64,000 nucleotides of DNA from Gammaproteobacteria bacterium (GTDB lineage: Bacteria > Pseudomonadota > Gammaproteobacteria > SZUA-229). The DNA is taken from contig JALWPK010000209.1 in the NCBI GenBank assembly GCA_026995045.1, positions 1 to 64,000 on the forward strand, written 5' to 3'. The stretch's first letter is position 1, and each line of letters opens with the position of its first letter. Shown in pieces: positions 10,076-15,575 of this stretch. Below the pieces are notes generated by a model. It was not told the origin of the DNA and made no database searches. It worked only from the letters and a program-made list of their open reading frames with translations. The position numbers were made by a program, and so were the translations under genes.

Positions 10076-12697
<2,622 letters not shown>

Positions 12698-12730
12698 AGA
12701 ATTCACCTCAAAATCAGATATGAATCCAAT

Positions 12731-12843: not shown

Positions 12844-13245
12844 TTACTCTTGCGGCAGCAGCGACTGTATTTTGCTGTCGATGGCTGACAACTCGGTGGC
12901 GTCGTGTTGCTTGTAGAACTGGTATACCTGTTCTTTCTGATCGCGGCTCAGCTCGGAGTAGTTGGCATACGTTTCAAAAAACTCATTGAAAAAATACAGC
13001 TTGAGTTGCTGCTGCGACAGACCTGCCGGAACAAACTGGCGCTTCGCCATAAACTGCTCATAACGGTCACTGTGAAAACTGGCGAGGGCGCGAGGTGAAT
13101 CGTCAACCGTTGCCTCATCGACATCCACCTCGGCGGCCTCTTGCTCCAGCGTCTGCACCAGGTCTGCCGAACACGCATTTCCCGACAGCATGGCCAGCAC
13201 GGGTATTGATAAAACGGCGCAATATTTACGAATGGAAAACATCAT
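12844..13245 (-). CDS. Small secreted protein, paralogue of the gene at 14200-14613
   Basis: Unrecognised 133-residue protein with a signal peptide (hydrophobic stretch about residues 9-22, cleavage near NACSA). The mature part is acidic near its N-terminus (LEQEAAEVDVDE) and ends in a helical block containing FFETYANYSELSRDQKEQ. That block matches NFYGTFLFYNKLSSTDKR in the protein at 14200-14613, and both start their mature part with an LExEAxxxxxD pattern, so the two are homologous. GAGGAG lies nine bases upstream of the ATG. It is separated from the rhodanese gene by a terminator, so it probably has its own promoter. Function unknown; a periplasmic or secreted location is inferred. An Ala-Cys in the signal region is not a convincing lipobox. 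Confidence 0.72.
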   Translation of the reverse strand: MMFSIRKYCAVLSIPVLAMLSGNACSADLVQTLEQEAAEVDVDEATVDDSPRALASFHSDRYEQFMAKRQFVPAGLSQQQLKLYFFNEFFETYANYSELSRDQKEQVYQFYKQHDATELSAIDSKIQSLLPQE

Positions 13246-13391
13246 GTCATTACACTCCTCAAGGGTTTATACCTACCACCGTAATTATAGAGTTGGCGCA
13301 ATATATATATGTGATGAAATGTTATTAACTGAAAAGTATTTGTTAACTATTGTTATCGGCGCACAGGGGGCTTCTTTATAAAGTACGTGAC

Positions 13392-13424
13392 AAAAAAAGC
13401 CGCAACCGGTTGCCCGGTTGCGGC
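13392..13424 (-). terminator. Intrinsic terminator of the rhodanese operon
   Basis: A ten-base-pair perfect stem (13399-13408 with 13415-13424, GCCGCAACCG/CGGTTGCGGC) with a six-base loop is followed on the minus strand by seven T residues (plus-strand A-run 13392-13398). It lies just after the rhodanese stop codon and so ends the two-gene unit 14613-13450. Confidence 0.92.
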
Positions 13425-13449
13425 CTGGTGTATACGTTTTCAGAAACGC

Positions 13450-14184
13450 CTAGCGCGCAGCCACTGTCGACTGACTGGGCTTGATGGTGGTCAAACCCAA
13501 AGACTGCCACATCTGCATACCACCACGGTACCAGTAGATCTTTTCCGCCGGATAGCCCAGCGCCAGCAGAGCCTTGATCGCGCGTGGCGACTGCCCGCAC
13601 CAGGGGCCGTTGCACCATAACAGCAAATCCTTGGCCTGTGAAAAATCCCATTTATCGGTTTTCATGTCACCATCGAGAAAACCCAGGGTTTCAATCACAC
13701 GCACCACCGGATTGACCTCATCACGTTCCTTGGCGCCGAACGACTCCAGCACTTCAGCCAGCTCGATGTCATCAGACGGCTTTTCAAAAATGGTAAAGGG
13801 AATATTGGTTGAACCCGGAATCGTGCCACGCTTGTGCCAGCTGGGCGTACGCGCATCAATAATGACGCCACGCCCACGATAGTATGGCCCTTCCATGAAT
13901 TTGATGACTTCAAGCTCACCAACTGTTTTCACGCCTTCGTGCAAGGCGATCGGGTTGATACAAAATGGCGGACACGGACGTGAGGTTTTGGCAAATGAGC
14001 CATCGATTTTATGATCGGTGTCCTGGATACGCTGTATCTTGACCAGCTCATTATCGTGCATCACTGTACTGTAAGCCATGTCCTTGGTAATTTTTACTTC
14101 CAGCTCTCTCGCCTGAACACTAACAGCCAGCGTGCTGGCGACAAGTGTCGTGGCGGCAACGGCTAATATGGATGAGAATTTCAT
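13450..14184 (-). CDS. Periplasmic rhodanese-domain protein
   Basis: Predicted periplasmic sulfur-transfer (rhodanese-fold) protein of 244 residues. A signal peptide covers about residues 1-25 (ending SVQA). A CPPFC motif lies at 71-75 in SRPCPPFCINP. The single rhodanese domain has DARTPSWHKRGTIPGSTNIP (about 110-129) and the active-site loop CNGPWCGQS (Cys191 and Cys196), followed by the typical ALLALGY and WYRGGMQMW. Four cysteines in two pairs suggest disulfide or persulfide chemistry. GAGG stands seven bases before the ATG. It follows the small secreted gene by 15 bases and is cotranscribed with it. Donor and acceptor of sulfur are unknown. Confidence 0.88.
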   Translation of the reverse strand: MKFSSILAVAATTLVASTLAVSVQARELEVKITKDMAYSTVMHDNELVKIQRIQDTDHKIDGSFAKTSRPCPPFCINPIALHEGVKTVGELEVIKFMEGPYYRGRGVIIDARTPSWHKRGTIPGSTNIPFTIFEKPSDDIELAEVLESFGAKERDEVNPVVRVIETLGFLDGDMKTDKWDFSQAKDLLLWCNGPWCGQSPRAIKALLALGYPAEKIYWYRGGMQMWQSLGLTTIKPSQSTVAAR

Positions 14185-14199
14185 TATCGTACCTCGAAT

Positions 14200-14613
14200 T
14201 TATCGCTTTATCAGATCCAGAATGTTTTTTCGCACATTTTCAAGGCTTGTTGAGGCCGCCTTTTTATATCGATAATAAACTGTCCGCTTGTCTGTCGAAC
14301 TCAGCTTGTTGTAAAACAGAAAGGTGCCGTAAAAATTCTCCTGAAGAATGGATTCGAACTCCTCATACTGCAACCCCGATGGCAACGTTTCACCATCCAG
14401 CGAACCTTTCCAGCCAAATCCCTCTCTGCCAGACAAGTGCTTGTTATTTCTAACCTTTGCTGCTGTGTCATGTTGTAACTGCCCGGACTGATCCAGTTCC
14501 AGCTTTTCAGCCTCTCCTTCCAGCATTTGCATATACGCATCGTCGGCAGCCAATGCATTCAAGCCAGAAAACAGCAGACACACGGTCAAACCGCAGAAAT
14601 AAACATTCTTCAT
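14200..14613 (-). CDS. Small secreted protein, first gene of the rhodanese operon
   Basis: Unrecognised 137-residue protein. The first 22 residues form a signal peptide (cleavage after NALA). The mature protein begins with an acidic helix (YMQMLEGEAEKLELDQ), has a glycine-containing middle, and ends in a helical, lysine-rich block with NFYGTFLFYNKLSSTDKR. It is a diverged paralogue of the protein encoded at 12844-13245. It is followed after 15 bases by the rhodanese gene and shares its terminator, so the product probably works with the rhodanese in the periplasm. The function itself cannot be deduced. The 200 bases upstream hold no feature I can support. Confidence 0.72.
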   Translation of the reverse strand: MKNVYFCGLTVCLLFSGLNALAADDAYMQMLEGEAEKLELDQSGQLQHDTAAKVRNNKHLSGREGFGWKGSLDGETLPSGLQYEEFESILQENFYGTFLFYNKLSSTDKRTVYYRYKKAASTSLENVRKNILDLIKR

Positions 14614-14816: not shown

Positions 14817-15575
14817 TCAACGCCAGATCAGGCTTGCCATGCGACCGGTTTCACCATCACGCCGGTAAGAATAGAATGTATCCAACTCGCTGCAGGTACA
14901 CCGTCCGCCGCCATATATTGCGTGGACAGACAGCGCCTGCAATTCCAGACGCGCCAGCTGGTAAAGATCGCCATACCAGCGCTGCGCGCCGGTTGACTCG
15001 AATGCCGCCCGATTAGCCGGGCTTTTGGCGGCAAAGGCGCGATAGACATCCTCGCCCACTTCAAACACCCGTGGCCCGATGGCCGGGCCCAGCCATACCA
15101 GCAGGTCTTGCGGGTTACACTGAAAGGCTTTCACTGTATTGGCGATAATGCCGGCATGCAGTCCGCGCCAGCCGGCGTGCGCCGCCGCTACCTGTTCGCC
15201 GTTACGGTCACACATCAGCAACGGCAGGCAATCGGCGGTCAGCACCGCGCATACCACGCCATGTTGCCGGCTGACAGCAGCATCGGCCTGCGGGTCAGGA
15301 TCACCCGTACTGTGATTTGCATCAAGTTCAATCACGCGATTACCGTGACATTGCGACAGCCACACCGGCTCGCCGGGCAGTCCGGCGAGCTGCCGCAAAC
15401 GCCGGCGATTTTGCGCCACATGTTGCGGCTGGTCGCCAACGTGCATGGCCAGATTCAGGCTGGAATACCGCCCCTGACTGACGCCGCCTGTGCGCGTGGT
15501 TGTGAACGCACGCACATTGTCAGGCGCAGGCCAGTCAGGCTGTATCAGCTCAATACCATGATTACCGGCTGTCAT
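14817..15575 (-). CDS. pgeF: Peptidoglycan editing factor PgeF (YfiH, laccase-domain protein)
   Basis: Cytoplasmic enzyme of the former multicopper polyphenol oxidase family, shown in relatives to clear peptidoglycan precursors carrying L-Ser in place of L-Ala. The 252-residue protein shows the family's metal/active-site motifs SQCHGNRV, TADCLPLLM and AHAGWRGL. It overlaps the 3' end of rluD by 14 bases, so the two are translationally coupled; this rluD-pgeF order is standard. The AT-rich stretch after its stop (towards 14614) contains no gene. Confidence 0.93.
   Translation of the reverse strand: MTAGNHGIELIQPDWPAPDNVRAFTTTRTGGVSQGRYSSLNLAMHVGDQPQHVAQNRRRLRQLAGLPGEPVWLSQCHGNRVIELDANHSTGDPDPQADAAVSRQHGVVCAVLTADCLPLLMCDRNGEQVAAAHAGWRGLHAGIIANTVKAFQCNPQDLLVWLGPAIGPRVFEVGEDVYRAFAAKSPANRAAFESTGAQRWYGDLYQLARLELQALSVHAIYGGGRCTCSELDTFYSYRRDGETGRMASLIWR

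Follow-up and report, generated by a model that had tools for sequence, protein, structure and literature searches.

The window, as we call the whole stretch of 64,000 nucleotides that was analysed, carries on its minus strand a rhodanese gene enclosed by two genes for small secreted proteins (SPs). In minus-strand order, these are SP1 (137 aa, 14200..14613; ORF call, BLASTP and profile search), a secreted rhodanese that we assign to the SoxL family (244 aa, 13450..14184), a strong intrinsic terminator with 13 pairs and a T run (13397..13426; stem-loop search, fold z = -4.7) and SP2, a divergent SP1 paralog (133 aa, 12844..13245). Only 15 bases (14185-14199) separate SP1 from the rhodanese gene. 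The three open reading frames, this gap and the stem-loop at 13426-13397 are as described in the first-pass annotation. SP2 lies past the terminator and upstream of clpB (10076..12706, minus strand), and a pgeF/yfiH-like gene (14817..15575, minus strand) forms the upstream flank. Based on sequence and neighbour clusters, both flanking genes are outside the module. The names pgeF/yfiH-like, clpB, rluD and rplM-rpsI at module loci were given by recognition. The N-termini of SP1, the rhodanese and SP2 resemble signal peptides when judged by eye, which agrees with the export predicted earlier for all three proteins. No RNA element was found in the module region. The locus reads rluD-pgeF-module-clpB and the rhodanese gene is thus outside a sox cluster, with soxB and soxA of this genome located on separate contigs (C15 and C30).

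The rhodanese matches PF00581 with 38.8 bits (curated cut-off 22.2; E 1.3e-9), and a PDB search with its structure model (pLDDT 81) retrieved rhodanese folds. The protein encodes the motifs CPPFC and CNGPWCGQSPRA, and the two cysteine pairs noticed at first sight (CPPFC and CNGPWC) are both there. SoxL from the truncated Sox system, such as Alvin_2171 of Allochromatium vinosum, is likewise a secreted rhodanese and has the motifs CPPFC and CNGxWC. The window protein and the SoxL of Thiocapsa KS1 (L194) have 42% identity (E=6e-60), and the latter is encoded in a soxX-soxA-soxK-SoxL cluster. A further family member (L192, genome G038) is found directly before soxB in the order soxA-soxK-rhodanese-soxB. 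The soxK genes of L194 and L192 match the SAXB model with E values of 1e-19 and 1e-23, both below its cut-off. Given the identity to L194 and the presence of family members in sox clusters, the window rhodanese is, by sequence, a SoxL-family protein of a divergent clade. The first-pass annotation proposed a periplasmic sulfur module around a CPPFC rhodanese. Periplasmic sulfur handling is indeed probable, but the rhodanese belongs to a divergent SoxL clade rather than to an orphan system.

In a tree of 96 rows, all SP-linked rhodaneses including the window copy fall into one clade (support 99/100), with the canonical SoxL proteins L194 and L192 outside. SP linkage is confined to this clade, which also holds a few SP-free members; the tree labels eight as SP-free, but one of these, L172 (G120), has an SP according to the genome search. 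The window genome encodes two more rhodanese copies, both SP-free, on C145 and C29, and the C29 copy falls inside the SP clade. The SP-linked clade carries IPFT and SPRA signatures, compared with IPW and SPTN or SPNN in canonical SoxL, and usually has a longer insert before the loop. The genomic setting differs as well, with SoxL following soxK and the window rhodanese being paired with an SP outside the sox cluster. Annotation lumps these two SoxL-like groups together. Two SoxL-family genes in a single genome have precedent in Thiocapsa bogorovii, which has a second SoxL, LT988_09460 (PMC10892978). The Thiocapsa copies covered here (L048-L050, L052) have no adjoining SP and fall into an SP-free tree group. 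Both cysteine pairs are kept in 46/46 SP-linked rhodaneses. The rhodaneses without loop cysteines are all without an SP (4/4). These are L135 and L136 (G374, G279), L032 (G042) and L016 (G014), and three of the genomes (G374, G279 and G042) are missing from the soxB matches.

SP1 and SP2 are 27% identical over 130 residues (BLASTP, E=1e-10). Both are among the 20 rows of the SP profile, and a single profile recovers both from the genome, which upholds the paralogy suggested initially. SP1 and SP2 have no family match in Pfam or NCBIfam, and scanning 54 SP members singly against the same collections produced isolated chance matches only, none of them consistent. The small protein family is thus undescribed in Pfam and NCBIfam, as had been surmised. 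The literature covered, which was mostly open-access and did not include Welte 2009, mentions neither the SP partner family nor its pathway association. Mature SP1 begins with the motif DDAYMQMLEGEA, followed by a linker and a C-terminal helical domain (about residues 75-137). The N-terminal motif across the family is D-x-Y-L-x2-L-E-x-E-A, and the linker after it is variable. A structure model built from the 20-sequence alignment predicts four helices in the C-terminal domain, with 57 residues above pLDDT 90. The fold had no structural match in the PDB (best E 4.9), nor was a match found there by sequence. The N-terminal motif is duplicated within a single SP in G160 and in G335:C1, and this repetition suggests that the motif might be a binding unit. 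Like SoxK/SAXB (SoxAX-binding protein, NF052674), SP is small and secreted, and its gene comes just before that of a SoxL-family rhodanese. However, SoxK is found behind soxA and is unlike SP in sequence and profile. Homology to SoxK was rejected, with NF052674 matching 0/54 SPs and hhalign giving a probability of 0.2% against SoxK of L192 and L194. A draw of 398 genomes from the phylum, extending the search beyond the class, returned the window genome alone, hence the SP family is rare.

Single-protein searches of relatives placed SP matches next to rhodanese matches. The 20-member SP profile was run on a sample of 369 genomes of the class, alongside a rhodanese profile, and matched in 40/369 genomes. 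Of 45 SP genes counted at E<=1e-4, 38 are directly 5' of a rhodanese gene. Two are located just 3' (the window SP2 and the G167 SP2), one is at a contig end (G334), with a probable rhodanese at another contig end, and four are orphans. G231 has a further weak SP upstream of its rhodanese. SP genes are therefore not found mostly without the rhodanese, and the proposed association withstood this search. The arrangement with a rhodanese between two SPs is real in the window, but it is rare (two genomes, the window genome and G167); the general unit has one SP on the 5' side. What is conserved is a module of two genes, with SP first and the rhodanese second. A survey of neighbour clusters found nothing beyond this pair to be kept across loci. 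Several relatives of the window genome have the module flanked by rluD-pgeF and clpB, four genomes have it behind rplM-rpsI, and others have it in further contexts. Because contexts vary, the pair is the sole conserved unit, and membership in a wider conserved operon was rejected.

The adjacency of SP and rhodanese could also stem from chance or from shared ancestry of one locus, as the recurring rluD-pgeF-module-clpB locus in several relatives might indicate. This explanation is refuted by the context survey and has next to no probability, since many unrelated contexts, in 20 GTDB-type families, contain the pair and family f10 encodes two paralogous SP-rhodanese pairs. Distances among SPs and among rhodaneses are correlated (Mantel r=0.62, permutation maximum 0.17), a correlation that shared inheritance alone predicts. 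Alternatively, SP might chaperone or stabilise the rhodanese in the periplasm, by assisting its folding or protecting its reactive cysteines, rather than serve as a docking adaptor. A small, helical, mostly cysteine-free protein encoded just upstream would suit such a role, as would the lack of SP beside degenerate rhodaneses. We consider this unlikely, given that an intact clade rhodanese occurs without SP in three close relatives (G013, G027 and G036) and that some SPs stand alone or next to a LolA-like protein.

The orphan SP variants at L139:5200-6592 (G051:C32) and L142:4607-6033 (G383:C25) immediately precede the gene for a secreted LolA_like protein (PF17131), which might be a second type of SP-domain partner. 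Two genomes of one genus, G234 (L137:6667-7038) and G104 (L138:6023-6472), encode an SP and have no SoxL-family rhodanese, soxB or dsrA. The L137 SP adjoins apparent yggS and proC genes. A different secreted acidic protein of ~80 residues with a PECD/PDCE end is encoded upstream of SP-free rhodanese copies at L025, L028 and L031, with a lysA-like gene further upstream at L028.

The module follows truncated Sox (without SoxCD) plus reverse Dsr in Gammaproteobacteria. soxB was detected in 35/36 module genomes compared with 117/333 others (Fisher p=6e-14). Relative to 42 soxB-positive, SP-free control genomes, dsrA is enriched (35/36 versus 26/42; p=2e-4) and soxC is depleted (1/36 versus 16/42; p=2e-4). 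All three counts are without phylogenetic correction and, because the genomes are related, the Fisher tests overstate independence. The sole module genome without soxB (G243) and the sole one without dsrA (G352) are incomplete (87% and 79%, respectively). One soxB match, at G284:C1:4401304-4403007, has two in-frame TGA codons. The hosts of SoxL likewise have Sox, mostly without SoxCD. The sulfur- or thiol-handling role envisaged at first can thus be sharpened, with sulfur handling being probable in the setting of truncated Sox plus reverse Dsr.

The same association bears on two further explanations. SP could help to build or nucleate sulfur deposits, with the rhodanese delivering sulfur to it. 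The near restriction of the module to SoxCD-lacking, Dsr-containing genomes matches a globule-making physiology, and SP is small and secreted. Sgp proteins have a Gly/Tyr-rich make-up, which SP lacks by inspection, and 22/42 controls are dsrA-positive and soxC-negative yet SP-free, making such a role improbable. The rhodanese might instead be an envelope thiol-disulfide oxidoreductase using CPPFC and CNGPWC as redox pairs, and not a Sox sulfur acceptor. Its two cysteine pairs are invariant, and the loop region has a faint similarity to TIGR03865, the PQQ-dependent catabolism-associated CXXCW protein (8e-5). The score of 22.6 bits falls short of the TIGR03865 cut-off (128), and membership in this family was rejected. 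The rhodanese fold, a family member within a sox cluster, the strong association with soxB and dsrA and the near exclusion of soxC make an oxidoreductase improbable.

SoxL was proposed as a probable replacement for SoxCD, moving sulfane sulfur from SoxYZ to stored sulfur (PMC3368242; PMC4136832). A role in SoxYZ turnover was graded as possible elsewhere, citing Welte 2009 (PMC5573963). Based on this published role, we lean slightly towards the module being a second SoxL-type sulfurtransferase that would relieve SoxYZ of its sulfur in bacteria without SoxCD, SP serving as an adaptor that takes no part in catalysis. What we computed is the linkage of the genes, homology, clade membership, the association with the pathway and the conservation of the cysteines; to these we add, by inference, all biochemical steps and the tethering by SP. 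One CNGPWC-loop cysteine would accept the sulfane sulfur that remains bound to the cysteine of SoxY, and the sulfur might be relayed via the conserved CPPFC pair. The rhodanese would then pass the sulfur to periplasmic zero-valent sulfur or to an importer towards Dsr, and SoxYZ would be regenerated by the removal of sulfur. SP, with a loose linker between its N-terminal motif and C-terminal helical domain, would carry no sulfur. The small proteins are unlikely to relay persulfide because cysteines are absent beyond residue 30 in 46/54 SPs, and SP as a sulfur carrier was rejected on the same count. SP would rather tether the rhodanese to SoxYZ, the sulfur store or another partner. The location of the window module outside a sox cluster and the separation of the clade from canonical SoxL leave room for a different substrate, and the SP-clade rhodanese may not share that of canonical SoxL. 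The adaptor reading is further weakened by the intact clade rhodaneses that lack an SP in G013, G027 and G036 and by the SPs of G104 and G234, genomes in which this rhodanese family, soxB and dsrA are all missing.

More tentatively, SP might be a dedicated docking factor through which a second SoxL-type rhodanese takes sulfane sulfur from SoxYZ to storage or import, and this may be the step still missing from truncated Sox to reverse Dsr. The almost constant pairing with the rhodanese makes SP a candidate for the missing part that moves sulfur off the thiosulfate-oxidising machinery. The module tracks Sox without SoxCD plus Dsr over about 20 families, and its SP belongs to a family that neither Pfam nor NCBIfam contains. 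It provides a concrete and testable candidate for how sulfane sulfur leaves SoxYZ without SoxCD and proceeds to globules or to cytoplasmic Dsr.
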